A stretch of DNA of 64,000 nucleotides, from positions 11,677,501 to 11,741,500 of the forward strand of contig NZ_JAMZEB010000002.1 in assembly GCF_024172165.1 (NCBI RefSeq). The letters are read 5' to 3'. The notes beneath the pieces were generated by a model. That model did no database searches and was not told where the DNA came from. It saw only the letters and a list, made by a program, of their open reading frames with translations. Every line of letters starts with the position of its first letter. The stretch's first letter is position 1. This document shows, piece after piece, positions 43,221 to 56,756 of the stretch. The position numbers and the translations under genes are program-made. The DNA is from Nonomuraea thailandensis (GTDB lineage Bacteria; Actinomycetota; Actinomycetes; Streptosporangiales; Streptosporangiaceae).

Positions 43221-43501
43221 GTACGGCCTCCTCGTAGTGAAAAGCCAGGAAACTTGCGTTTTGTGCAGTTTAGATGGGGTTTAGCTGCGGTCTGTCACCC
43301 GGGATTTAACGATGCGTCAACAGAACGGCGTCGGCGCCGACACCGAAGACCATCTCAGCATGTGGCAAGATGGGGAGACGGGTGACCCCCGAACCCCCTC
43401 ACCAGACGACCGGCGAGGGGATCCTGGCAGCTACCGAAGCCAGCCCGCTCGCGCTCGTCCGCCGAAGGTTACTTCCGCTACCGATGACTACAGGGGTCGC
43501 T

Positions 43502-44692
43502 GTGGCTGCCACGCCCGCTTCTGCTTCCGTCGAAACACCCGACCTCGATCCCGCCTTCGCCCTGCACAGGGGAGGCAAGATCGAGATCCGCTCCACCGTT
43601 CCCGTCCGCGACGCCGACGACCTGTCGCTCGCGTACACGCCCGGCGTCGCCCGGGTCTGCACCGCCATCGCCGATCAGCCCGCGCTGGCCGACGACTACA
43701 CCTGGGTCTCCAACGTGGTGGCCGTCGTCTCCGACGGCACCGCGGTGCTCGGCCTCGGTGACATCGGCCCCGCCGCCGCCATGCCCGTCATGGAGGGCAA
43801 GGCGCTGCTGTTCAAGGAGTTCGCGGGCGTCGACGCCGTGCCCATCTGCCTCGACTGCACCGACGTCGACGGGCTCGTCGAGACCGTGGTGCGCCTGGCG
43901 CCCTCGTTCGGCGGCATCAACCTCGAGGACATCAGCGCCCCCCGCTGCTTCGAGATCGAGGACCGGCTGCGCGACCTGCTCGACATCCCGGTCTTCCACG
44001 ACGACCAGCACGGCACCGCGATCGTGGCGCTGGCCGCCCTGCAGAACGCCGCCCGGCTGACCGGCCGCGCGCTGGGCGACCTGCGGGCCGTCGTGGCGGG
44101 CGCGGGCGCGTCCGGCGTGGCCGTCACCCGCATCCTGCTGGAGGCGGGCATCGGCGACATCGCGGTCTCCGACTCCAAGGGCATGCTCTACGAGGGCAGG
44201 GAGGGCCTCAACCCGGTCAAGCAGGCGCTGGCCCGCGACACCAACCGGGTGGGCCACACCGGCTCCACGGAGGAGGCACTGGAGGGCGCCGACCTGTTCC
44301 TGGGGCTGTCCGGGTCGACGGTGTCGGAGCAGGCGATCGCGTCCATGGCGCCCGACGCCATCGTGTTCGCCCTGTCCAACCCGACGCCGGAGGTGCACCC
44401 CGACGTGGCCGCCAGGCACGCCAGGGTGGTGGCCACCGGCCGCTCCGACTTCCCCAACCAGATCAACAACGTGCTGGCCTTCCCCGGGGTGTTCCGGGGC
44501 GCCCTCGACGTGCGGGCCACCGCGATCACCGAGAACATGAAGGTGGCCGCGGCCAACGCGCTGGCGGGCGTGGTCGGTGACGACCTCACGGCGACGTACA
44601 TCATCCCGAGCCCGTTCGACGAGCGCGTCGCGCCCGCCGTGACGGCCGCCGTGGCCGCCCAGGCCCGGGCGGACGGGGTCGCACGCCTCTAG
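43502..44692 (+). CDS. NAD(P)-dependent malic enzyme
   Basis: 396 aa from the GTG preceded by AGGGG; longer in-frame starts at 43484 and 43370 are less likely. Catalytic Tyr in LAYTPGVARVC, metal-binding CTDVDGLVETV and FHDDQHGTAIVALAAL, the nucleotide loop VAGAGASGVAVTRILLEAG and SNPTPEVHPDVA. It decarboxylates malate to pyruvate. No phosphotransacetylase domain is attached, so it is the short bacterial form. Confidence 0.93.
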   Translation: MAATPASASVETPDLDPAFALHRGGKIEIRSTVPVRDADDLSLAYTPGVARVCTAIADQPALADDYTWVSNVVAVVSDGTAVLGLGDIGPAAAMPVMEGKALLFKEFAGVDAVPICLDCTDVDGLVETVVRLAPSFGGINLEDISAPRCFEIEDRLRDLLDIPVFHDDQHGTAIVALAALQNAARLTGRALGDLRAVVAGAGASGVAVTRILLEAGIGDIAVSDSKGMLYEGREGLNPVKQALARDTNRVGHTGSTEEALEGADLFLGLSGSTVSEQAIASMAPDAIVFALSNPTPEVHPDVAARHARVVATGRSDFPNQINNVLAFPGVFRGALDVRATAITENMKVAAANALAGVVGDDLTATYIIPSPFDERVAPAVTAAVAAQARADGVARL

Positions 44693-44701
44693 CGGTCTCC
44701 C

Positions 44702-44747
44702 GGCGAGCGAGAGAGCCCTTTCCGGCCCTCGCTCGCCCCAATTTTTA
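44702..44747 (+). terminator. Intrinsic terminator after malic enzyme
   Basis: GGCGAGCGAG (44702-44711) pairs exactly with CTCGCTCGCC (44728-44737), followed by CCAATTTTTA. Confidence 0.93.
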
Positions 44748-44972
44748 CCGTCTCCCACCAGGTCGTTCTCCCTTTCGGGTTACGGGGGCGTTTCGTGGGT
44801 AGTTGAGATCCCCGTCCAGGAGCCAGGGCCGCCCGCGCACGCGCAGGACGGCCCGCGGTGTGGGATGGAGTTTGGGTGACCTTTGGGAACTGCCATAATC
44901 CCTTTACGCAAGGTGCTATAACAGTAGCTCTCTGTAATGATGTGGGCGCCGACTCCTGTGACGAGGAGAGCG

Positions 44973-46331
44973 ATGGAACGCGAGCCGAATCGACTGCTGC
45001 AGCAGCTCATCGCAGAGGCGGGTTTTTCCCACAAGGGACTGGCCAGGCGCCTCAACGATCTGGGAGCCGCGCGTGGCACGCCGGGCCTGAAGTACGACCA
45101 CAGCTCCGTCCTGCGCTGGATCGGAGGCCAGAGGCCGCGCGATCCGGTCCCGTGCCTGCTCACCGAGATCTTCGCGCTCCGGCTGGGCAGGCCGGTCTCG
45201 TCGGAGGACCTCGGCATGCCGGCCGTCATCACACCCCTTGATCTTGGACAGGAGTTCACGCACACCTGGCAGGAGGGGGTCGCGACCGTGACGGCGCTGT
45301 GGCGGGCCGATGTGGAGAGACGGAGGTTCCTGATCGACTCGACGTTCGCGATAGGAGCAGGCTCTGTTGGAGCCGTACGCTGGCTGACATCGCCCTCTGA
45401 GGGGCACCCGAGCGGCACCGGGACGCGGCGGGTGGGCCGCGCCGACGTCGCCGCCATCCACGAGGTCACCCGCTCGTTCGGTGAGCTCGACAACCGCTTC
45501 GGCAGCGGACGCGTCCGCTCGTCCGTGGTCAAGTACCTCGACACCGCCGTCTCACCCTTGCTCAAGGACGGCTTGTACGGCGAGTCCACCGGCAGGCAAC
45601 TGGCCGCCGCGGCCTCGGAGCTGACCCGCCTGGCGGGGTGGATGGCCTACGACATGGAGCAGCACGGCCTCGCCCAGCGGTACCTGATCCAGGCCCTGCG
45701 CCTGGCCAGGGGCGCCGACGACCAGACGCTGGGCGGCGAGATCCTGGCCGGCATGGCGCACCAGGCCATCTACATGGGCCAGCCGGCCCACGCCCTCGAC
45801 CTGGCCAGAGCCGCCCAGATGGCGGCCCGCGCGGCCGGGGTGAAGACCCTCCTTGCCTCCGCGCACGTCCTGGAGGCCCACGCGCACGCCGGCCTGGGCG
45901 ACGCCCGCTCCTGCGGCCACGCCCTGCACGAGGCCGAGTGCGCCTTCGACGCCCGCAAGCCCGCCGACGAGCCCAAGTGGCTCAGCTACTTCGACGAGGC
46001 CTACCTGTCCGCCAAGTTCGCCCACTGCTTCCGCGACCTCGGGGAGGGAGAGCGGGTCGTGCGCCAGGCGCGGCGCTCGCTCGACATGGACTCCCGGTAC
46101 GTGCGAGGCCGCATGTTCAACCTGTCGCTGCTGGCCGCCGGGCTGCTGCAGTGCGGGGAGCTGGAGGAGGCGTGCTCGGCGGCGGCCGGCGCGCTGACGC
46201 TGGCCGCCGAGCTCCAGTCGGCGCGGTCGCGGTCGTACGCGGCCGATCTGCGGCGGCGGCTGGAGCCCTACAAGAACGAGCGGCCGGTGGCCGCGCTGCG
46301 CGAGCGCACGCGCGAGCTCACCGCCGTGTGA
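44973..46331 (+). CDS. NsdA-like regulator with helix-turn-helix and TPR region
   Basis: 452 aa from the ATG with GAGGAG upstream. The first ~90 residues (NRLLQQLIAEAGFSHKGLARRLNDL; LKYDHSSVLRWIGGQRPRDPVPCLLTEIFALRLGR) form an unusual helix-turn-helix shared with streptomycete NsdA-type developmental repressors. Residues ~200-440 are repeated helical pairs of TPR type (AQRYLIQALRLARG, ALDLARAAQMAARAAG, AHAHAGLGDARSCGHAL). The upstream ~280 bp holds the malic-enzyme terminator and A/T-rich spots including TATAAC. It converges on the trypsin-like array. Confidence 0.8.
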   Translation: MEREPNRLLQQLIAEAGFSHKGLARRLNDLGAARGTPGLKYDHSSVLRWIGGQRPRDPVPCLLTEIFALRLGRPVSSEDLGMPAVITPLDLGQEFTHTWQEGVATVTALWRADVERRRFLIDSTFAIGAGSVGAVRWLTSPSEGHPSGTGTRRVGRADVAAIHEVTRSFGELDNRFGSGRVRSSVVKYLDTAVSPLLKDGLYGESTGRQLAAAASELTRLAGWMAYDMEQHGLAQRYLIQALRLARGADDQTLGGEILAGMAHQAIYMGQPAHALDLARAAQMAARAAGVKTLLASAHVLEAHAHAGLGDARSCGHALHEAECAFDARKPADEPKWLSYFDEAYLSAKFAHCFRDLGEGERVVRQARRSLDMDSRYVRGRMFNLSLLAAGLLQCGELEEACSAAAGALTLAAELQSARSRSYAADLRRRLEPYKNERPVAALRERTRELTAV

Positions 46332-46374: not shown

Positions 46375-47919
46375 TCACTTCAGGAGCTCGCCGTTCGGGC
46401 CGACGATCTTCTTCGTCTCGGCGAAGTTCGCCTTGTTGTAGACGTCGGCGGTCTCGCCGTCGAAGATGGCCGAGCTGATGGTGTCGATCCGGTCGTTGCC
46501 GTCGTTGTCGGCGAAGACGCTGGTCACGCCGTTGACGTAGCCGGTGCGCTTGCTGTTGTTGTACTTCATGAGCCACGGGCCGCCGTCGGCCCCCCAGGTC
46601 ATGGAGCACTTGAGCACCTGGTGGGTCTCGACCTTGAACGTGTTGACCTGCACGCTCTTCGTGCCGGTCTTGCCGGTGCACCACTTGGGGGTGACGCCGG
46701 TGTACGGCCTGTCGCCGTCGGGGTGCGGGGCGCTCGGGTAGCCGAAGACCGTCACCTGCTGGCCGAGCGGCTGGTTCCAGGCGAAGCCCTGGCCGCCGAC
46801 GACGTCGCCGAGGCGGCCGAGGTCCTTGGCCAGGCCGAGGAAGTAGTGGTCGCGGAAGTAGCGGACCGTCTTGCCGGCCTTCACCCACTGCTTGACGTAG
46901 AAGCGGGTCTCGAACCACGCGGTCTCGGTGCCGTTGGCGTCCTTGGTGACCGTGAGCTTGCCGAGGTACTTGCCGTCGCCCTTCTCAGCCGTGAGCTTCT
47001 TGAACTCCTCCTGGCTGATGGGGGTCGGGCCGGCCTGCTCGTACTGCTCGCCGTTGACGTCGCTCGCGGTGTCCTTCGGCGCCTTGCCGTACTCCGACTC
47101 CGTGACCTCGACCTTGGTCAGGATCTTCTCGCCCGAGTAGTTGTGCGCGACCTTCTCCGGCGTGACGTCGAAGTCCTTCGACCAGTACGGCCCCGCGGGC
47201 CCGTACTTCTCGAACCCGGCGTCGTACTCTTCCTTCTTGATCTCTTCGTGCTTGATCCACTTGTCGCCGGCCCAGGCGTGGAACTCGCTCTTGACGACCT
47301 CCTTGGAGCCCGTCAGCGCGAAGCCGTTGTGCACCGCGACGAAGGCGTAGTCGCCGTCGTAGTCGTCGTAGGTGTCGAGGTCGTAGGCGGTGAAGGCGTA
47401 GGCGCCGACGTAGACGCCCCAGGGGGCCTTGCCCTGGTAGTAGCCCGGCACGAAGATCCACTTGCGGTAGACCTCGTCCTTGCCGTTCTCGAACACGCAG
47501 TGGCCGGCCGTGGCGACCAGGTTGCGGTTCCTCGACTGGATGGACGTGGCCGAGCACCAGCGGTAGTGGCCCGACTTGTCGAGGAAGAAGACCTTGCCGA
47601 TGGTCTTCGGCAGGTTGACGTTCTTGCTGGTGGTCGCCTTGGCGGTGGTGGTCGGGCCGGTCATGCCGGGCTTGCCGTCAGGCACGCCCTTGCTGCCCGA
47701 GCTGACGACCTTCGGCACGTCCTTGGCGTCCAGGTTGTACTGCGTGGCCTTCCGCAGGGCGGCTCCGTTGGAGTCGAGCCAGAAAGCGGCGGCGCCGTAC
47801 GCGTCGGCCGGCTTGGTCAGGAGATCTTCGGATGCCCAGGACGGGGCGGCGTTGGCGGGCGAGGCCAGTACGGCGGCGCTCAGGCCGGCGGCGGCGAGGG
47901 GGATGAGCAGGCGCTTCAA
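46375..47919 (-). CDS. Secreted trypsin-fold protein A, Ser-to-Asp variant with insert module
   Basis: 514 aa from TTG preceded by GGAG; the open frame continues upstream to 48282 but that part overlaps the next gene. Signal peptide at 1-24 (MKRLLIPLAAAGLSAAVLA). The trypsin-like core has WCSATSIQ and ATAGHC (His140), DGDYAFVAV (Asp190) and, in place of GDSGG, TWGADGG with Asp445 at the nucleophile position. A ~165-residue module (about 200-370) sits between the Asp strand and GRLGDVVGGQGFAWNQ. Conserved cysteine pairs suggest two disulfides. It is the most downstream of six paralogues. Loss of Ser predicts no classical protease activity; binding or a different chemistry is open. Confidence 0.86.
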   Translation of the reverse strand: MKRLLIPLAAAGLSAAVLASPANAAPSWASEDLLTKPADAYGAAAFWLDSNGAALRKATQYNLDAKDVPKVVSSGSKGVPDGKPGMTGPTTTAKATTSKNVNLPKTIGKVFFLDKSGHYRWCSATSIQSRNRNLVATAGHCVFENGKDEVYRKWIFVPGYYQGKAPWGVYVGAYAFTAYDLDTYDDYDGDYAFVAVHNGFALTGSKEVVKSEFHAWAGDKWIKHEEIKKEEYDAGFEKYGPAGPYWSKDFDVTPEKVAHNYSGEKILTKVEVTESEYGKAPKDTASDVNGEQYEQAGPTPISQEEFKKLTAEKGDGKYLGKLTVTKDANGTETAWFETRFYVKQWVKAGKTVRYFRDHYFLGLAKDLGRLGDVVGGQGFAWNQPLGQQVTVFGYPSAPHPDGDRPYTGVTPKWCTGKTGTKSVQVNTFKVETHQVLKCSMTWGADGGPWLMKYNNSKRTGYVNGVTSVFADNDGNDRIDTISSAIFDGETADVYNKANFAETKKIVGPNGELLK

Positions 47920-48012
47920 CGGAGGCTCCACAGTTGTCAAAAAGGGTGTAAAGACCCTATCGACCCACCAGTCACTCTGGTAAGGGGAATGCTCAGATTT
48001 ATCGGAGAAAGG

Positions 48013-48044
48013 CCAAAGGGCCCGGCAGAAGCCGAGCCCTTTGG
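48013..48044 (-). terminator. Terminator of trypsin-fold gene B
   Basis: CCAAAGGGC (48013-48021) pairs with GCCCTTTGG (48036-48044), with an inner CGGC/GCCG stem and AGAA loop. It lies 50 bp beyond the stop codon at 48095 and before gene A. Confidence 0.8.
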
Positions 48045-48094
48045 GTGAAGCATGTGAACGATGACCAGGTCGTCGTTCGGTACAGCGGCAAGAA

Positions 48095-49693
48095 CTACGG
48101 AACGAGCTTGCCGGACCACGAGGCCGAAGCGGCCTTGTAGATCGCGGCGGTCTCACCGTCGAAGTACGGCGAGGTGATCGTGTCGTAGCGCTTGTTGCTG
48201 TCGGTGTCGGCGATGAGGCTGGTGACACCGTTGACGTAGCCGAGACGCTTGCTGTTGCTGTACTTGTACAGCCACGGCGCACCGTCGTAACCGGCGGTCA
48301 CGGTGCACTTGAACGACATCTGCTCCTCGACCTTCTTGGACGGGATGCGCAGAACGTTCTTGGCCGTCTTGCCGTAGCACCACTTCGGCGTGACACCGGT
48401 GAACGGCTTGTTGCCGTCCAGGTGCGGGCCGAAGGGGTAGCCGAAGGTGCGGACGTACTTGCCGGTGGGCTGGTTCCAGGCGAAGCCCTGGCCACCGACG
48501 TTGTCACCGAGACGGCCGCCGCTCTTGATGAGCGCGCCCTCGACGACGTAGTAGTCCTCGACCCAGTAGTTCACCTGAGCGGTGGACTTGATCCACTTCT
48601 TGACGTAGAACTGCTGCTTGAACCAAGCGGTCTCGGTGCCGTTCGCGTCCTTCACGACGCGCAGGGTGCCGAGGAACTTGCCGTCGCCCTTCTCCGCAAC
48701 GAGCTTGTGGTACTCCTCCTGGGAGACCGCGATCTCGTTGGAGAGACGCTCGAACTTGTTGCCGTTGTCCAGACCGGCGGAGGCAGCGTTGTAGACCGAC
48801 TGCGTCACCTCGACGCCGACCAGCTTCACGCCGTCGACGCCAGTGGCGATGTAGTCCTCGATCTTGTCCGCGGCGTTGGCCGGCTTGGCAACCGACTCGA
48901 CCTTGGGGTCAGCAGCAGCCGACTTGTACGGGCCAGCCTCGCCGTACTTCTCGTAGCCCGCGGCGAACTCCGCGGCGGTGATGGGGGTCTCCTTGACGAA
49001 GCCCTTACCACCCTTGGCGACGTGCGCCTTGTACTCGCTCGGGGTGACCTTGGTGACCTTGGGGTTGCCCGGCACGAGAGCGTCGTAGACGGTGACGAAC
49101 GCGTAGTCGCGGTCGAAGTCCTCGTACACGTCGAAGTCGTAGTGGGTGAAGGCCTGCTTACCCACGTACACGCCCCAAGGCGTCTTGCCCTGGTAGTAAC
49201 CGGGGACGAAGACCCAGCGGGAGACGACCTCGTCGTTGCCGGCGATGTCGTACACGCAGTGACCGGCCGTGGCGACCAGGTTGCGGTACTGCGACTGGAT
49301 CGAGGTGCCCGAGCACCAGTACAGCGAACCGTCACGGTACTCGAAGAAAACCTTACCGATGGTCTTCGGCAGGTTCACGTTCTGAACCTTGGCGGTGGTC
49401 TTCTTCTCCTCGCCGATGGGGGCGGTGGAGCCCGGCTTGGTGTCCGCGCTGTAGCCGCCACCGGAGGAGATCTTCTGAACCTCGAGAGCGTCCGGGTTGA
49501 ACGCCACAGCCTTCTTCAGGGCCGCGTTGTTCGACGCCGTCCAGAACTTGAGGGTCTCGTACGCCTGGGCGGACGTCTTCGCCAGCTCAGCCTTGGCGAT
49601 GTCGTCGTCGGCCTGCGCCGTGGTGGCGAGACCGGCGGCCAGGAGACCAGTGGCCAGAATGGCGCCACTGGCGGGGAGGAGGATGCGCTTCAA
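48095..49693 (-). CDS. Secreted trypsin-fold protein B, Ser-to-Asp variant with insert module
   Basis: 532 aa from TTG with AAGGAG at a 5-nt spacing; an ATG 14 codons upstream (49735) lacks a ribosome-binding site. Signal peptide MKRILLPASGAILATGLLAA...AQA. His145 in ATAGHC, Asp196 in DRDYAFVTV, and GYDGA at the nucleophile site (Asp470, with the second Gly also changed to Ala). The insert module spans ~205-390. The C-terminal tail YFDGETAAIYKAASASWSGK is shared with genes C and D. The leader up to 41 bp is almost identical to that of gene C, pointing to recent duplication. Confidence 0.87.
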   Translation of the reverse strand: MKRILLPASGAILATGLLAAGLATTAQADDDIAKAELAKTSAQAYETLKFWTASNNAALKKAVAFNPDALEVQKISSGGGYSADTKPGSTAPIGEEKKTTAKVQNVNLPKTIGKVFFEYRDGSLYWCSGTSIQSQYRNLVATAGHCVYDIAGNDEVVSRWVFVPGYYQGKTPWGVYVGKQAFTHYDFDVYEDFDRDYAFVTVYDALVPGNPKVTKVTPSEYKAHVAKGGKGFVKETPITAAEFAAGYEKYGEAGPYKSAAADPKVESVAKPANAADKIEDYIATGVDGVKLVGVEVTQSVYNAASAGLDNGNKFERLSNEIAVSQEEYHKLVAEKGDGKFLGTLRVVKDANGTETAWFKQQFYVKKWIKSTAQVNYWVEDYYVVEGALIKSGGRLGDNVGGQGFAWNQPTGKYVRTFGYPFGPHLDGNKPFTGVTPKWCYGKTAKNVLRIPSKKVEEQMSFKCTVTAGYDGAPWLYKYSNSKRLGYVNGVTSLIADTDSNKRYDTITSPYFDGETAAIYKAASASWSGKLVP

Positions 49694-49723
49694 GGTAACT
49701 CCTTGCGCTGTCGTGGAACGCTT

Positions 49724-49764
49724 CTTGCGTCCCATGCGTCAGTAAAGGGATAGCCAGGAACATA
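49724..49764 (-). promoter_or_regulatory. Leader/promoter block of gene B (twin of gene C block)
   Basis: 41 nt that match the gene C block 51762-51802 at 40 positions. On the minus strand it begins with the -10-like TATGTT and runs through the ATGGGACGCAAG stretch. In both genes CCAAAGCGG lies exactly 25 nt further upstream. Gene D has a diverged copy near 54061-54088. Confidence 0.6.
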
Positions 49765-49968
49765 CAGTGTCGATCTTGAGATCCGGTAGCCGCTTTGGTC
49801 GGAAAGATGGGGACTCGGCGGCCGTGATCGTTCTGTGATGTTTAAGCGGCTGATGCGCAGGAGCTGAGGAAAGCGGATCTTGTCACCGTTTGCCCAGATC
49901 AACATAAGGAAGTTGTCAGTGGGACTCCGGTGGCTGAGGCGATCTCATGGTTCCGGCCGATCTCATGA

Positions 49969-49984
49969 TGTGACGCAGATCACA
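49969..49984. promoter_or_regulatory. Perfect CRP-type palindrome upstream of gene B
   Basis: TGTGA-CGCAGA-TCACA, an exact match to the CRP consensus TGTGA-N6-TCACA. It lies 276 nt upstream of the gene B start; related sites precede genes C and D. Confidence 0.7.
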
Positions 49985-50049
49985 TCGACTTGATGGCACC
50001 GTCTTGCCGTCCCGTGCGTCCAAACGCCTTCACATTCGGCGGGAAAGCA

Positions 50050-50078
50050 GAAGGGCCCGGCGGGATGCCGGGCCCTTC
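50050..50078 (-). terminator. Terminator of trypsin-fold gene C
   Basis: Perfect 12-bp stem GAAGGGCCCGGC (50050-50061) with GCCGGGCCCTTC (50067-50078), loop of 5 nt, 48 bp beyond the stop. Confidence 0.88.
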
Positions 50079-50126
50079 GCCAGTAGCGGTCACACGAACG
50101 GTCTACGACCGATCGCTATCCGTCAC

Positions 50127-51728
50127 TTAGACAATCTTGCCGGACCACGAAGCCGCGGCGGCCTTGTAGACGGTGTTCGTCTCGCCGTCGAAGTACGGCG
50201 AGGAGATGTAGTCCACGCGGCCGTTGCCGTCCTGGTCGTTGAAGGTGCTGGTGACACCGTTGACGTAGCCGAGACGCTTGGCGTTGCTGTACTTGTACAG
50301 CCACGGGCCACCGTCGGCGCCCTCGGTCATGGCGCACTTGAGGGCGACGTGCTCCTCGATCTTCTTGGCGGCCGAACCGACCAGCTTCTTCGTGGTGGTG
50401 CCGTAGCACCACTTCGGAGTCACGCCGGTGTAGTTCTTGTTGCCGTCGGGGTGAGCAGCGGCCGGGTAGCCGAAGACGCGCACGGGCTTGCCGGTCGGCT
50501 GGTTCCAGGCGAAGCCCTGGCCGCCGACGTTGTCGCCGAGACGACCAGCGTCCTTGCCGGCGATGTCGACCACGTAGTAGTCCTCGACCCAGTACTTGAT
50601 CTGAGCGGTGGACTTGATCCACTTCTTGATGTAGTACTGCGTCTTGAACCAGGCGATCTCGTTCTTGTTGGCGTCAAGCTGGGCGCGAACCTCGCCCATG
50701 AACTTGCCGTCGCCCTTGGCGGCCTTCAGCTCGTTGTACTGCTCCTTGCTGATGGGCACCTCGGTGCTCAGGCGCTCGAACTTGGCGCCGTTGTCGAAGC
50801 CCGTGGGAGCCGCGGTGTACTGCGACTTGTAGACCTCGGCACCGACGAGCTGGACACCCTTGGTGGGGCCCTCGCCCTTGATGTAGGCGTCGACGTTGCT
50901 GCCGGTCACGTCGGCGGGCTTCGCGACCGTCTCGACCTTCGGGTCGGCGGCCTTCGACTTGAAGGGGCCGTCCTCGCCGTACTTGTCGTAGCCGGCCTCG
51001 AACTCTTCCTTCGTGATCGAGGTTTCCTTGACGAAGCCGACGCCGCCCTTGGCCACGTGCGACTTGTACTCGCTCGGCGTGACCTTGGTGGTCTTGCCGG
51101 AGACGTGAACGCCGTTGTAGACGGTCACGAACGCGTAGTCGCGGTCGTAGTCCTCGTAGACGTCGAAGTCGTAGTGGGTGAAGGCCTGCTTACCCACGTA
51201 GATGCCCCAGGGGGACTTGCCCTGGTAGTAACCGGGGACGAAGACCCACTTGGACAGGACGTCCGTGTTGGCGGCGGTGTCGTAGACGCAGTGACCGGCC
51301 GTGGCGACCAGGTTGCGGTACTGCGACTGGATCGAAGTGGCGGAGCACCACTTCTTCTCGCCCTTGCTGTTGACGAAGAAGACCTTGCCGATGGTCTTCG
51401 GCATGTTGACGTTCTGGACCTTCGTGGAGGTCTTCTTCTCCTGGCCGATCGGAGCGGTCGAGCCCGGCTTGGTGTCCGAGCTGTAGCCACCCTTGCTCTG
51501 CAGCTTGGCGACGTCAGTCTTGTCCCAGACGTTCGACTCGGTAGCGGCCTTGAGGGCAGCACCGTTGTTCTCCGCCCAGAACTGAGCGATGGCCTTGGCG
51601 TTGGCCGCGCTCGTCGCCATGTTGTCCTTGGCGACGGTGTCGTCGGCCTGGGCCGTACCGGCCAGGCCGGCGGCCAGGAGGCCGGTGGCCAGGAGGGCGC
51701 CACCGGCGGGGATGAGGATGCGCTTCAA
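50127..51728 (-). CDS. Secreted trypsin-fold protein C, Ser-to-Asp variant with insert module
   Basis: 533 aa from TTG with AAGGAG eight bases upstream; an ATG at 51773 is an alternative. Signal peptide MKRILIPAGGALLATGLLAA...AQA. His146 in ATAGHC, Asp197 in DRDYAFVTV, and TEGADGG with Asp472 at the nucleophile site. The insert module (~205-390) contains four motifs of the form [VI][TS]xxE[YF], for example KVTPSEYKSH and SITKEEFEAGYDKYG. Everything outside the module is close to gene D, which lacks it. A CRP-like site lies 270 nt upstream. Confidence 0.87.
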   Translation of the reverse strand: MKRILIPAGGALLATGLLAAGLAGTAQADDTVAKDNMATSAANAKAIAQFWAENNGAALKAATESNVWDKTDVAKLQSKGGYSSDTKPGSTAPIGQEKKTSTKVQNVNMPKTIGKVFFVNSKGEKKWCSATSIQSQYRNLVATAGHCVYDTAANTDVLSKWVFVPGYYQGKSPWGIYVGKQAFTHYDFDVYEDYDRDYAFVTVYNGVHVSGKTTKVTPSEYKSHVAKGGVGFVKETSITKEEFEAGYDKYGEDGPFKSKAADPKVETVAKPADVTGSNVDAYIKGEGPTKGVQLVGAEVYKSQYTAAPTGFDNGAKFERLSTEVPISKEQYNELKAAKGDGKFMGEVRAQLDANKNEIAWFKTQYYIKKWIKSTAQIKYWVEDYYVVDIAGKDAGRLGDNVGGQGFAWNQPTGKPVRVFGYPAAAHPDGNKNYTGVTPKWCYGTTTKKLVGSAAKKIEEHVALKCAMTEGADGGPWLYKYSNAKRLGYVNGVTSTFNDQDGNGRVDYISSPYFDGETNTVYKAAAASWSGKIV

Positions 51729-51761
51729 GGGAACTGCTCCTTGCTCTGTCGTGGGTCGCAA

Positions 51762-51802
51762 CTTGCGTCCCATGCGTCAGTAAAGGGATAGCAAGGAACA
51801 TA
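51762..51802 (-). promoter_or_regulatory. Leader/promoter block of gene C
   Basis: Partner of the gene B block (40 of 41 positions identical). It carries the TATGTT -10-like hexamer (51797-51802), with TTCACC 17 nt further upstream as a possible -35. Confidence 0.6.
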
Positions 51803-51997
51803 GCGTGGTGATCTCCGCAGGTGAAACCCGCTTTGGACGATCCGGTAGACACCCTTACCGCCGTGACCTTTCCGTTACCTGTCAGGGACTTATGCGCGTT
51901 GTGATCGTCAAGTCACGTTTTTGCAGGGTATGGAGGGGTTGTTGTTCCTGGGACGAAAGTGCCGTTAGATGGCTGACACATTGCGTAGTCGCAAAAA

Positions 51998-52013
51998 CGT
52001 GACTCAGATCACA
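51998..52013. promoter_or_regulatory. CRP-like palindrome upstream of gene C
   Basis: CGTGA-CTCAGA-TCACA, one mismatch from TGTGA-N6-TCACA, 270 nt upstream of the gene C start, close to the 276 nt seen for gene B. Confidence 0.6.
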
Positions 52014-52140
52014 GGAACCAGATCGGAACCTGCCCCGTCTAAGTTGGCCCGTTTCTCACAGGAGATCTTCAGGATCGGGCCCGGAGGGCTTCGGAGAGCC
52101 GTGTGCGCCGGGGTTCCGGAGGGTTTGCCGGCACATGAAA

Positions 52141-52169
52141 CGGCCCGCCGACGCGTGGTCGGCGGGCCG
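52141..52169 (-). terminator. Terminator of the DUF4096 gene
   Basis: Perfect 12-bp stem CGGCCCGCCGAC (52141-52152) with GTCGGCGGGCCG (52158-52169), then TTTCATG on the minus strand. It gives the transposase-like gene its own transcription unit. Confidence 0.88.
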
Positions 52170-52185
52170 TGGAGTGGGGTGCGGG

Positions 52186-52617
52186 TCAGGCTCCCTTGGG
52201 TCTGGCCGTCTCGCCCAGCAGGGCTTGGAGGCTGGTGAGCACCGCTGTGTCCTTGAGAGGGGACAGGTGGGGTGGTGTCGTGCCGGAGGAGCCTGGCGGA
52301 TGGTCGCGGATGGGGCCGAGCTCCGCTGGGCCGATCCTGCCCGTACGAGCCGGCACGTGGTCGCCGGGGTCGCGGGGGGCGTCGGGGTGGAGCGCCAGGG
52401 TCAGGCGCTGCCAGGTGCCGTCCGCCAGCCAGCGGCGGTGGCGTTTGTAGATGGTGACCCAGCAGCCGTACCGGTCGGGGAGGTAGCGCCATCGGACGCC
52501 GGTGCGGGCCTGGTAGAGGAGGCCGTTGATCACGGTGCGGTCGTCGGTGACGCCGTTCTGGGGGAGGAGGGTGGCGACCCGGTCCCATTCGGCGTCTGTC
52601 AGATCATCGCGACGCAT
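52186..52617 (-). CDS. Solitary DUF4096 transposase N-terminal-like protein
   Basis: 143 aa. Residues 1-~80 (MRRDDLTDAEWDRVATLLP; INGLLYQARTGVRWRYLPDRYG; WQRLTLALHPDA) match the DUF4096 helix-turn-helix domain that opens IS5/IS402-type transposases. The remaining ~63 residues (Pro/Gly-rich, ending LTSLQALLGETARPKGA) are not the catalytic DDE part, and no second frame, inverted repeats or target duplication is found. It has its own terminator. It is either an IS remnant or a domesticated DNA-binding protein. It sits inside the trypsin-fold array, between C and D. Confidence 0.75.
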   Translation of the reverse strand: MRRDDLTDAEWDRVATLLPQNGVTDDRTVINGLLYQARTGVRWRYLPDRYGCWVTIYKRHRRWLADGTWQRLTLALHPDAPRDPGDHVPARTGRIGPAELGPIRDHPPGSSGTTPPHLSPLKDTAVLTSLQALLGETARPKGA

Positions 52618-52804
52618 GCGCCCATCGTGACAAGGCAAATACGGTCTGTCAGTCGAACAAAGAAAGATCTTCATGCTGACAGGTGTGATGGCTGGGTATG
52701 CGCTGCTTCGGGGTGGGGGAGGTGCCCGGCCCCGTGTTTTGGTCACGCCCGATCCGGTGTCCGCCCCCGTGTGCGGCCGCGCTGTGGGGTCCGGAAACAA
52801 CAAG

Positions 52805-52832
52805 GCGAGGGCCTCGGGATCGAGGCCCTCGC
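52805..52832 (-). terminator. Terminator of trypsin-fold gene D
   Basis: Perfect 12-bp stem GCGAGGGCCTCG (52805-52816) with CGAGGCCCTCGC (52821-52832), 4-nt loop, followed on the minus strand by CTTGTTGTTTCC. Confidence 0.9.
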
Positions 52833-52848
52833 TTTCCCCTGGTAGGGC

Positions 52849-54012
52849 TTACTTGTAGAGCTCGCCGTTCGGGCCCACGATCTTGCCGGACCACACGTTC
52901 TTCGCCGCGCTGTAGACCGCGGCGGTCTCACCGTCGAAGTACGGCGAGGTGATGTAGTCGATCCGGTCGTTGGCGTCCTGGTCGGCGAACGTGCTGGTGA
53001 CGCCGTTGACGTAGCCGAGACGCTTGGCGTTGCTGTAGTTCAGCAGCCACGGGCCGCCGTCGTAGCCCGGGGTCACGGCGCACTTGAGGCCGACGTGCTC
53101 CTCGATCTTCAGCCAGGAGGCCCCGACGGTCTTGGCGGTGGTGTTGCCGTAGCAGTGCTTCGGCGTCACGCCGCTGTACGGCTTGTTGCCGTCCGGGTGC
53201 GGGGCGGCCGGGTAGCCGAAGGCGCGCACGGGCTTGCCGGTGGGCTGGTTCCAGGCGAAGCCCTGGCCGCCGACGTTGTCGCCAAGGCGGCCCGCGTCCT
53301 TGGACAGCAGGATGTAGTAGCGGCCGCCCCAGCCCCGCTTCGGGCCGGTGAAGCGCTCGAAGTCCTTGCGGTCGACCTGCTTGACGCCGTTCGAGGTGAT
53401 GCCGTTGTACACGGTGACGAACGCGTAGTCGCGGTCGTAGTCCTCGTAGGTGTCGAAGTCGTAGTGGGTGAAGGCCTGCTTGCCGACGTAGATGCCCCAC
53501 GGAGCCTTGCCCTGGTAGTAACCGGGGACGAAGACCCACTTGTCCATCGTGGAGGAGTTGCTGTCGGTGTCGTAGACGCAGTGGCCGGCGGTGGCGACCA
53601 GGTTGCGGTAGTTCGACTGGATGGAGGTGCCCGAGCACCAGCGGAACTTGCCGTGCGCGTCGACGAAGAACACCTTGCCGACGGTCTTGGGGAGGTTGAC
53701 GTTCTGGGCCCTGCCGGTCGACTTCGACTCGCCGGTCGGGGCCGTGGTGCCGGGGCTGCCGTCAGGGCTGTAACCGCCCTTGGAGACGACCTTCCGAACC
53801 TCGTTCGAGTCCCACGTGTACTGGGTCGCGGACCGGAGCGCGGCGCCGTTCGAGGCCAGCCAGAAGGAGGCGACGGAGACGGCGGCGGAGTTGTTGCGGG
53901 CCATCGGGTCGTGGGCGACGTCGCCGTCGGCCTGCGCCGTACCGGACAGGCCGGCGGCCAGCAGACCGGTGGCCAGGATGGCGCCGCCGGCGGGGAGAAG
54001 GATTCGCTTCAA
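52849..54012 (-). CDS. Secreted trypsin-fold protein D, Ser-to-Asp variant without the insert
   Basis: 387 aa from TTG with TGGAG upstream (ATG alternative at 54048). Signal peptide MKRILLPAGGAILATGLLAA...AQA. His144 in ATAGHC, Asp195 in DRDYAFVTV, and TPGYDGG with Asp318 where Ser is expected. The Asp-type core is complete, but the large module is replaced by about 30 residues (VDRKDFERFTGPKRGWGG). It is probably the closest to the ancestor of the Asp-type branch. The C-terminus YFDGETAAVYSAAKNVWSGKIV matches B and C. Confidence 0.87.
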   Translation of the reverse strand: MKRILLPAGGAILATGLLAAGLSGTAQADGDVAHDPMARNNSAAVSVASFWLASNGAALRSATQYTWDSNEVRKVVSKGGYSPDGSPGTTAPTGESKSTGRAQNVNLPKTVGKVFFVDAHGKFRWCSGTSIQSNYRNLVATAGHCVYDTDSNSSTMDKWVFVPGYYQGKAPWGIYVGKQAFTHYDFDTYEDYDRDYAFVTVYNGITSNGVKQVDRKDFERFTGPKRGWGGRYYILLSKDAGRLGDNVGGQGFAWNQPTGKPVRAFGYPAAPHPDGNKPYSGVTPKHCYGNTTAKTVGASWLKIEEHVGLKCAVTPGYDGGPWLLNYSNAKRLGYVNGVTSTFADQDANDRIDYITSPYFDGETAAVYSAAKNVWSGKIVGPNGELYK

Positions 54013-54202
54013 GGTAACTCCAGGTTGCGCTGACATGAGGCGCCTCATGCACCTCCATAACTCAGCAAACGGACAGCCCGGAACCTATCGGTTTGACTCG
54101 AATCATGTGAATCGCCGGTGGATCCTGTCAGCGTTCCAAAACGCGCCGTGACCGTACCGAGACAAAGAAGCCGCTGATCACCCGTCGTGATCATTCGGTT
54201 GC

Positions 54203-54218
54203 TATGACTTAGGTCACA
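54203..54218. promoter_or_regulatory. CRP-like palindrome upstream of gene D
   Basis: TATGA-CTTAGG-TCACA, one mismatch from the CRP consensus, about 190 nt upstream of gene D. It overlaps the stop codon of gene E. A TGATCA-N7-TGATCA pair lies next to it at 54175-54193. Confidence 0.45.
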
Positions 54219-55294
54219 TTTGACAGGGTGCTGAGCCCGGCGGCGCGTCGGTAGACCTCTCCGGTGGTGGTGTCGAAGTACGGAGCCGACACCGAGTCGT
54301 AGCGGCCCTTGGCGTCCCGGTTCCAGGTCAGGCTGTTGACGCCGCCCAGGCTGCCGAGCCTGCGGTTGTCGTCGTAGGCGATCACCCAGGGGCCGCCGCT
54401 GGCGCCCGGGCTGAAGTCGCACGGCGTCAGCTCGACACCCTTCTGCAGGTCGCGGCCGGGGGCGACGGTGAAGCGGGTGTTGCCGGGCAGGCACTTCTGC
54501 AACGTCTTGCCGTCGTACGGGTGCGAGCCGTCGGGCTGCTGGCCCGCCGGGTAGCCGAACGCGGTCACGGTGTAGGTGCCGGGCTTCTTGTTCAGCTCCA
54601 GGCCGAGCCCGCCCACGTTGTCCTGGAGCCGGCCGATGTCCCGCATGACGTACCCGCCGTCCTTGGCGACCCAGGCGAAGCCGCGGTGCACGGTCACGAA
54701 CGCGTAGTCGTAGTCGTAGTCGCCCTTGCCCGACCAGTCCTCGTGCAGGCTGATCGAGGCGCCCACGTAGATGCCCTCGGGCGCGTTGCCGTTCGGCTCG
54801 GGGTTCGGGACGAAGATCCAGTAGTCGGCGGGCTTGGCCGTGCGCGAGTCGTACGCGCAGTGCCCGGCGGTGGCCACCACGCTGCGGTTCTTGGCCGCGA
54901 CCGCGGCGGCGGAGCACCAGTACTCCTTCTCCCCGAACCGGAAGAAGACCTTGCCGATGGTGTTGGCGGCGGTGCCCTTGCGCGGCAGCGCCGGGGAGAC
55001 GCCGGCCGCGGCGGTCGTCCGCTTCACGGTGACGGACGCGGCGGCGCCCGACGAGGTCGCCGAGGCGGCGGAGCCGGAGCCGGGCGTGGCGGGGGTGGAC
55101 AGGTCGGTCTTCTGCAGGCGGTCGGGCCTCCAGTAGTCGGCGACCCGCTTCACGTCCGTGAGCGTCTTGGCCAGCGGGACGGCGTACACCTTGCTGGGCG
55201 CGACGGCGGCGTGGGCGATCCCCGTGAAGGCAGGCACGATCAGCAGCGCGCTGCTGAGGGCAGCGGCCACGAGGTGCCTGACACGGGGGATCAT
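54209..55294 (-). CDS. Secreted trypsin-like serine peptidase E (intact triad)
   Basis: 361 aa, ATG with AAAGG upstream. Signal peptide LVAAALSSALLIVPAFTGIAHA. A Ser/Ala/Thr-rich linker follows (residues ~68-105). His145 in ATAGHC, Asp196 in DYDYAFVTV, and SPGASGGPW with Ser299, so the classical triad is complete. Two conserved cysteine pairs match the paralogues. It should be an active extracellular protease, unlike A-D. It has neither the MKRIL signal-peptide type nor the leader block of genes B-D. Confidence 0.9.
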   Translation of the reverse strand: MIPRVRHLVAAALSSALLIVPAFTGIAHAAVAPSKVYAVPLAKTLTDVKRVADYWRPDRLQKTDLSTPATPGSGSAASATSSGAAASVTVKRTTAAAGVSPALPRKGTAANTIGKVFFRFGEKEYWCSAAAVAAKNRSVVATAGHCAYDSRTAKPADYWIFVPNPEPNGNAPEGIYVGASISLHEDWSGKGDYDYDYAFVTVHRGFAWVAKDGGYVMRDIGRLQDNVGGLGLELNKKPGTYTVTAFGYPAGQQPDGSHPYDGKTLQKCLPGNTRFTVAPGRDLQKGVELTPCDFSPGASGGPWVIAYDDNRRLGSLGGVNSLTWNRDAKGRYDSVSAPYFDTTTGEVYRRAAGLSTLSNVT

Positions 55295-55631
55295 GAAATG
55301 CCTTTCTTGGGGTCGTAAGGGTGGATTTTTCCAGATGTACAGACGGTATTGCAGCTCGGATAGAGATTCGTTACCTGATCAAGAGTGCATCGTGAACCAT
55401 AAGGACACCGTCAGCCGAACGCTCCTGATACGTGTAAACGATCATTAAGCCGGTCATGTCTCCGCAGGTCAGAGGCCGGTTCCGGAGCGCTCGTCGTGTA
55501 CGGAATTCGCGTCCATTCGCGGTCGTATTCGCACGCTCCAAGTGGCGTACGCCACGTCGGCAAGTGGCCCCCATTCCGTCGAAGGGATGGCCCCGGCTCC
55601 CAGGGGGAACCGGGGCCCGGGGTGCCGTCGA
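55295..55631. other. Intergenic region between genes E and F
   Basis: 337 bp, A/T-richer in its first half (55330-55450), where gene E promoter elements are expected. It ends with a hairpin GGCCCCGG (55589-55596) / CCGGGGCC (55610-55617) plus an inner TCCC/GGGA stem, the likely terminator of gene F. No CRP-like palindrome and no gene seen. Confidence 0.6.
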
Positions 55632-56756
55632 TCAGCGCCAGTTGCCGGTCCAGCGGTTGGCGGCGGCCTTGTAGACCTTGTAGGTGTCGGTGTTGAAGTA
55701 CGGCGACGAGATGTGGTCGTAGCGGTCGTTGCCGTCGGTGTCCCACGCGACGCTGTTGACGCCGACCAGGTAGCCGGTCCGCGACGCGCTCTTGTAGTTG
55801 TAGATGAACGGCCCGCCGCTCGCGCCGGCGGTGAAGGAGCACTTGAAGCCGATGTGCTCCTGCAGGTTGTACTTCTTGGCCTCGGGCATCGCCTTGGTCT
55901 TGCCGTAGCAGTACTTCATCGTGCGGCCGGTGAACGGCTTGTCGCCGTCGGGGTGCTCACCGGCGGGGTAGCCGAACGAGAACACGTTCAGCTTGGTGCT
56001 CCGGTTCCAGGTGAAGCCCTGGCCGCCGACGTTGTCGCCGAGGCGGCCGACGTTCTTCACGGTCCACTTCCACTGACCGTTGACCTTCTCCCAGTTGACC
56101 TTGATGCCGTTGAAGACGTTGACGAACGCGTAGTCGTAGTCGTAGTCCTCCTTCACGACGAAGTCGTCGTGCGCGTTGAACGTCTTGGCGGCGTAGATGC
56201 CGTAGGGAGCCTTCCCGTTCCAGACCTTGTCGCCGTCCCAGTAGGACGGGATGAAGATCCAGTTGTCGTAGAAGGTGTTCTTCTTGGTGTCGTACACGCA
56301 GTGGGCGGAGGTCGCCACGAGGTTGCGGTACTTGCCCTGCACGGAGCTGGCCGAGCAGTAGCGCCAGTTCTTCGGGTTGCGGGGGTCGGCCTTCGGCAGC
56401 GTGAAGAACACGCGGCCGACCGTGTTCGGCAGGTTGACGTGCTTGCTCTTCGAGGTCTTCGCCTTCTCCGCGCCGATCGGCGGAACGGAGCCGGCGGGCC
56501 CGTCGGGAGCGTCGTTGCTCCCCTTGACGCCCTTGGAGGACAGGTCGAGGCCGTCGTTGTGGTCGGTGGCCAGCTTGACGCGGTCCGGCGTCCAGAACTG
56601 GACCGCCTGCTCGGCGGGGGTCGCCGAGTTCTTCGAGACGACGTCTGAGGGTGCGGTCGTCGCGTTGGCCGCGGCGCCGCCGACCATTCCCGCCGCCAGC
56701 CCGATGGCCACGAGGCCGGCGAGGGGGATCGCGATGCGCCTTGCTCGGGAATACAT
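55632..56756 (-). CDS. Secreted trypsin-like serine peptidase F (intact triad)
   Basis: 374 aa, ATG with GAGGAG upstream. Signal peptide MYSRARRIAIPLAGLVAIGLAAG. His152 in ATSAHC (Gly before His is Ala), Asp208 in DYDYAFVNV and TAGASGGPF with Ser313. The C-terminal SPYFNTDTYKVYKAAANRWTGN is the counterpart of the WSGK tail in B-D. It is the first (most upstream) gene of the array, and with E forms the Ser-type branch. Confidence 0.9.
   Translation of the reverse strand: MYSRARRIAIPLAGLVAIGLAAGMVGGAAANATTAPSDVVSKNSATPAEQAVQFWTPDRVKLATDHNDGLDLSSKGVKGSNDAPDGPAGSVPPIGAEKAKTSKSKHVNLPNTVGRVFFTLPKADPRNPKNWRYCSASSVQGKYRNLVATSAHCVYDTKKNTFYDNWIFIPSYWDGDKVWNGKAPYGIYAAKTFNAHDDFVVKEDYDYDYAFVNVFNGIKVNWEKVNGQWKWTVKNVGRLGDNVGGQGFTWNRSTKLNVFSFGYPAGEHPDGDKPFTGRTMKYCYGKTKAMPEAKKYNLQEHIGFKCSFTAGASGGPFIYNYKSASRTGYLVGVNSVAWDTDGNDRYDHISSPYFNTDTYKVYKAAANRWTGNWR

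Follow-up and report, generated by a model that had tools for sequence, protein, structure and literature searches.

Aspartate in place of the catalytic serine in an array of predicted secreted trypsin-fold proteins from Nonomuraea thailandensis

Trypsin folds with and without a catalytic serine

The closest solved structures to the six proteins considered here are AL20 (3cp7) and Anisep (3wy8), serine proteases placed in an S1D(new) group (PMC6524800). They resemble proteins A–F in their fold, in a sequence match that extends over the domain and in the positions of the catalytic His and Asp, and their loop GSSGGPW matches the nucleophile loop of the array. However, AL20 and Anisep carry Ser where A–D carry Asp, A–C add an insertion of about 150 amino acids, and the domain of A–F, unlike that of AL20 and Anisep, is preceded by an encoded N-terminal segment.

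Trypsin folds that do not cleave have also been described. MamO is a bacterial trypsin-fold pseudoprotease that has lost Ser, keeps His and Asp and is not a protease (PMC4794232). It parallels A–D in its replaced nucleophile, in the retained His and Asp and in its place beside an active relative, MamE; however, MamO is HtrA-like, with Thr at 195 and Glu at 193 (PMC4794232), whereas A–D have Asp at 195 and Gly at 193, are predicted to be secreted and form a tandem array. PRSS23 keeps the triad, yet its activity is reported as not detectable (PMC13194640). Human protein Z is described as being without catalytic activity, and A–D are likened to it as putative non-cleaving trypsin folds. The animal serine protease homologues are likewise trypsin folds without cleavage, as A–D putatively are. 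Protein Z presumably carries Asp in place of the catalytic Ser; we take it to have lost His too, whereas the Asp proteins of the array family keep His in 227 of 228 cases.

The expansion of pseudoproteases is of a known kind, and it is the Asp variant that is unusual here. When a protein abandons catalysis, erosion of its remaining active site often follows, and the Leu/Ile class described below is an example. The present family contains Ser, Asp and Leu/Ile members together, and its Asp form alters little beyond the nucleophile, which offers a natural comparison for the role of a catalytic pair retained without its nucleophile and for asking if Asp-based chemistry is possible in a trypsin fold.

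The array and its nucleophile column

The window, i.e., the whole stretch of 64,000 nucleotides analysed, belongs to the 13.77-Mb genome of a soil actinomycete and contains six minus-strand genes, A–F (46375-56756), every open reading frame of which was found open at its position. The Asp-type motif is GADGG in gene A (46375-47931; H144, D194, Asp449 at 46585-46587, S471) and gene C (50127-51773; H161, D212, Asp487 at 50313-50315, S509), GYDGA in gene B (48095-49735; H159, D210, Asp484 at 48284-48286, S506) and GYDGG in gene D (52849-54048; H156, D207, Asp330 at 53059-53061, S352). Gene E (54209-55294; H145, D196, Ser299 at 54398-54400, S321) and gene F (55632-56756; H152, D208, Ser313 at 55818-55820, S335) are of the Ser type, GASGG. 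The nucleophile codon is GAC in A–D and AGC in E and F. The GTG start of gene A is inferred, and no clear ribosome site was seen before it. The 25 bases preceding the starts of B and C (49736-49760 and 51774-51798) differ at one place only, which suggests that these upstream regions were duplicated.

Each protein runs from an N-terminus that reads as signal-like through a segment to the trypsin-fold domain. The two-barrel trypsin/chymotrypsin fold (PA clan, S1-like) is assigned by structural models for C and D and from sequence only for A, B, E and F. Against 3wy8, model D gives Z 29.5 and rmsd 2.0, and model C gives Z 28.9 and rmsd 2.1, each over 216 aligned residues. Both models place a small confident segment first, then a low-confidence link and then the domain, and as modelled the segment and link look like a propeptide and its junction. 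The insertion follows the catalytic Asp in the alignment of the six, where it is present in A–C and absent from D–F; it has no Pfam match, and in the model of C (residues 219-408) it appears as strands, each followed by a helix beginning like [ST]xEE[YF]. A long insertion is commoner among Asp than Ser representatives (68/87 vs 18/94) and is found in both. Only gene E passes a curated Pfam cut-off (PF00089, 24.3 vs 20.6); F falls just under that of PF13365 (26.7 vs 27.6), A–D match both Pfam trypsin models weakly and below their cut-offs, and NCBIfam assigns no family to any of A–F.

The six motifs occupy one gap-free column of a single alignment, and ATAGHC or ATSAHC and the Asp before YAFV are present in 6/6 proteins. 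This alignment, together with the reading frames and codons, confirms the earlier note, which had described six secreted trypsin-fold proteins that all keep the catalytic His and Asp and of which four have Asp at the nucleophile. The search for an alternative Ser at the nucleophile site of A–D returned none: phmmer pairs the gene D Asp with the Ser nucleophile of AL20 (gydggpw vs gssggpw), so this place is free of another Ser, and the catalytic Ser residues of AL20 and Anisep fall in the nucleophile column of A–D. The His57-Asp102-Ser195 triad is complete in E and F, which are presumed to be active proteases, but not in A–D, where Asp stands at 195. A–D combine a protease fold with a replaced catalytic residue, as pseudoproteases do; by sequence alone, the residue set of an Asp-nucleophile hydrolase (Asp, a His-acid pair and an oxyanion Gly) also lies in the right columns.

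Spread of the aspartate form and retention of its active site

Family members occur in 54/54 genomes of the genus that were searched, and array stretches were read in 20 of the 53 other Nonomuraea genomes. The gene order in these 20 stretches, whose slots were named by order, fits F-E-D-C-B-A, with six family genes in 15/20, five in 4/20 and three in one, L083, an incomplete stretch whose genome has more family matches beyond it. At least two Asp genes are present in every one of the 20. Slot C is GADGG in 20/20 and slot A is Asp in 20/20, slot D is Asp in 18/19, slot B is Asp in 15, Asn in 3 and Ala in 2, and one slot F (L084) has Asp. When relatives were assigned to slots with length taken into account (an assignment ignoring length put long proteins in slot D), Asp was found in 61/63 of slot C and 47/48 of slot A, while slot B had Ala, Asn or Ser in 9/33. 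Strong matches in the class and phylum samples came, among those listed, only from the window's family (f1). The DNA pattern for TxGxDGGPW matched in 10/296 class genomes, five of them in that family; the five outside were taken as chance, since their reading frames read as nothing trypsin-like. The corresponding Ser pattern with an AGY codon matched in 46/296 genomes (27/28 in the family and 19/268 outside, matches not individually checked). The pattern search detects one motif form only, so that absence elsewhere is not thereby shown.

For comparison of the residue classes, 547 non-contained members were aligned, of which 516 scored at least 150 bits and 501 had all three catalytic columns (15 were dropped). 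None of the 516 comes from outside the window, f1 genomes and the records of named relatives, and because members were gathered around arrays, the class shares are not prevalences. Position 195 holds Asp in 228 of the 501, Ser in 187, Leu in 41, Ile in 16, Asn in 15, Ala in 6, Thr in 5 and Gly in 3, giving a Leu/Ile class of 57 and 29 others. This share of Asp, with two or more Asp genes in every one of the 20 Nonomuraea stretches, is more than chance would give. The motif is odd, T[NA]DGS, in three of the 228 Asp proteins (L114, L227 and L228), whose arrays are rich in Leu/Ile members. The 31 weaker relatives used as the outgroup all have Ser at 195.

His57 is kept in 227/228 Asp, 187/187 Ser and 45/57 Leu/Ile proteins, Asp102 in 227/228, 186/187 and 44/57, and Ser214, named by its motif GVTS or GVNS, in 224/228, 182/187 and 2/57, respectively. 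The four residues His57, Asp102, Gly193 and Ser214 are intact together in 223/228 Asp, 182/187 Ser and 0/57 Leu/Ile proteins (83/87, 90/94 and 0/25 at 80% redundancy), and in 9/15 Asn and 11/14 Ala, Gly or Thr proteins; Gly193 is uninformative, as it is also kept in all Leu/Ile proteins. On the tree, losses of His57 or Asp102 number 2 in 42.9 units of Asp branch length, 1 in 84.1 of Ser, which includes the outgroup, and 11 in 12.7 of Leu/Ile (Leu/Ile vs Asp, p 4.5e-6; Asp vs Ser, p 0.26); an Asn branch and a Thr branch add one loss each. The Ser class has 44 columns with a conservation of at least 95%; in the Asp class only one of them is overturned, the nucleophile, which itself defines the classes, and the next lowest stands at 82%. 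The Leu/Ile class keeps these columns except for the nucleophile, His57, Asp102, Ser214 and one Gly. This class shows what loss looks like and acts as a built-in control, in which Ser214 is gone and His57 and Asp102 are drifting, although its rows are mainly one clade and the control thus rests on few lineages. Entropy over whole loops was discarded as a class separator, since the loops of Leu/Ile and Ser proteins are equally conserved relative to the rest, which leaves the catalytic residues alone to discriminate. Elsewhere in the genome of the window, two distant paralogues (L009 and L010) have Leu at the nucleophile (GALGSAW and GALGSSW), so that a single genome carries all three forms, Ser, Asp and Leu.

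These counts bear on slow decay, in which redundant paralogues would have lost Ser and persist by chance or for reasons of fold only. The occurrence of Asn, Ala, Gly and Thr at 195 would agree with it, as would the high pairwise dN/dS obtained by simple count (slot medians 0.38-0.73); however, the Ser paralogue E has a similar value, 0.63, and dN/dS was set aside as evidence, since synonymous sites look saturated and dS is poorly estimated in GC-rich DNA. Against decay stand the intact remainder of the site in 223/228 Asp proteins, the slots kept across the genus and the arrays kept across genera, and we regard it as very improbable. Simple erosion is unlikely given that nearly everything but the nucleophile is retained when compared with the Leu/Ile class, and the Asp form looks maintained, the same swap being common among relatives. 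The Asp variant is thus not scattered decay confined to one genome, and with neither that nor an alternative Ser found, the proposal of the earlier note that selection, for binding or for other chemistry, is likelier than decay is supported. Its phrase "consistent replacement" is weakened by two results: slot B is often occupied by Asn, Ala or Ser, and for a given length of tree Asp changes more often than Ser does.

Function and history of the aspartate form

The retained site would fit a charge-locked binding cleft and an Asp-based catalyst equally. We consider that A–D are probably secreted, non-proteolytic pseudoproteases in which the cleft is still needed as a charged binding site, putatively as decoys or partners. 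The Asp carboxylate would pair with His57 in its protonated form, with Asp102 and Ser214 in turn holding the His. This network, drawn from general chemistry, could keep the cleft stable, charged and unable to cleave while it binds, for instance, a peptide, an inhibitor or a partner's pro-segment. The Asp proteins may then work alongside the Ser paralogues E and F, whether as decoys, as binding subunits or as cofactors. In favour of this reading stand the retained supporting residues, the near-constant sharing of arrays by Asp and Ser members, the modelled trypsin fold of C and D, and MamO.

Alternatively, Asp195 may act as a nucleophile or general acid/base; His57-Asp102 would then activate water, and the oxyanion hole would be formed by Gly193. 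Within the alpha/beta-hydrolase fold, haloalkane dehalogenases and epoxide hydrolases use an Asp nucleophile. Searches of open-licence literature for such a nucleophile in a trypsin fold listed no case. The kept remainder of the catalytic machinery and the near-invariant Asp of slots C and A (61/63 and 47/48 assigned relatives) agree with such a catalyst, as do the Asp-to-Ser changes implied on the tree, by which the scaffold is seemingly still able to host Ser. However, by raw counts Asp was exchanged 16 times in 42.9 units and Ser 9 times in 84.1, slot B tolerates Ala, Asn or Ser (9/33), and the loop around His57 varies more among Asp proteins than among Ser proteins (entropy 0.64 vs 0.37), and we hold this catalytic role to be unlikely. 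The faster turnover of Asp, the tolerance of slot B, the looser His57 loop and MamO, in which a kept His-Asp pair is compatible with lost proteolysis, make binding the safer bet over other chemistry.

A metal site, in which Asp195 and His57 bind an ion with a structural or catalytic role, would draw on Asp next to His being a common ligand pair. MamO offers a repurposed trypsin fold that binds metal, although at a surface di-histidine (PMC4794232). The replacement of Asp by Asn and Ala in slot B counts against such a site, and no extra Asp, Glu, His or Cys was found among the columns specific to the Asp class; its presence seems most improbable.

Ser is the ancestral state, as the outgroups all have it. 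On a quick maximum-likelihood tree of 67 rows, which kept 8/20 outgroup rows, the label Asp requires 6 changes, and starred branches force at least 3 of these. A strict single origin, with the 19 Asp rows of the 67 as one clade, was rejected (p-AU 4.7e-71), much of the rejection being driven by one odd row, L228 (TADGS, in the Leu/Ile clade), without which p is 0.0006; with Asn rows added, p is 0.0175. A clade of 19 Asp/Asn rows and one nested Ser row, selected once the tree was known, withstands the test (p 0.52). On the larger FastTree, Ser seems to give way to Asp once in a main step and twice in small ones, followed by changes of Asp to Asn (5), Ser (5), Ala (3), Gly (2) and Thr (1), and its basal Ser-to-Asp branch has a support of 23 only. 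The number of switches is accordingly soft, since the clade tests hinge on row choice and the key branch is poorly supported. The preferred reading, a charged binding cleft, does not depend on the number of Asp origins, so that its probability is unaffected by these tests. An Asp class of enzymes with an Asp-His-Asp triad, a different reaction and repeated Ser/Asp switching appears decidedly unlikely. The nucleophile codons (GAC or GAT for Asp, AAC for Asn and mainly AGC for Ser) would fit a path through Asn.

Among 60 array stretches, Nonomuraea included, 43 have an Asp gene and 42/43 of these also a Ser gene (41/42 distinct stretches, as L112 and L230 are one place), with the residues of reading frames outside the alignment assigned by a motif rule; the one Asp-bearing stretch without a Ser gene is L083, which is incomplete. 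Four of the 60 have no Ser member, three of them being Leu/Ile only. A malic enzyme gene (43370-44692) adjoins the array in Nonomuraea and other genera, and a gene on the plus strand (44937-46331), regulator-like by reading and without a Pfam match, possibly encodes a regulator and flanks the array in several genera. In the 40 stretches from other genera (again with L112 and L230 as the same place), some of which end too early to show either gene, the regulator-like gene occurs in 18 and the malic enzyme in 22. Together they form a block (43370-46331) next to the array in several genera. Additionally, the gap between C and D holds a short minus-strand reading frame of an IS4/5-type transposase (52186-52803; PF13340). 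Similar reading frames, at 55-79% identity, are present in 19 loci, with some genomes counted twice, and most occupy this gap too, a pattern that resembles vertical descent.
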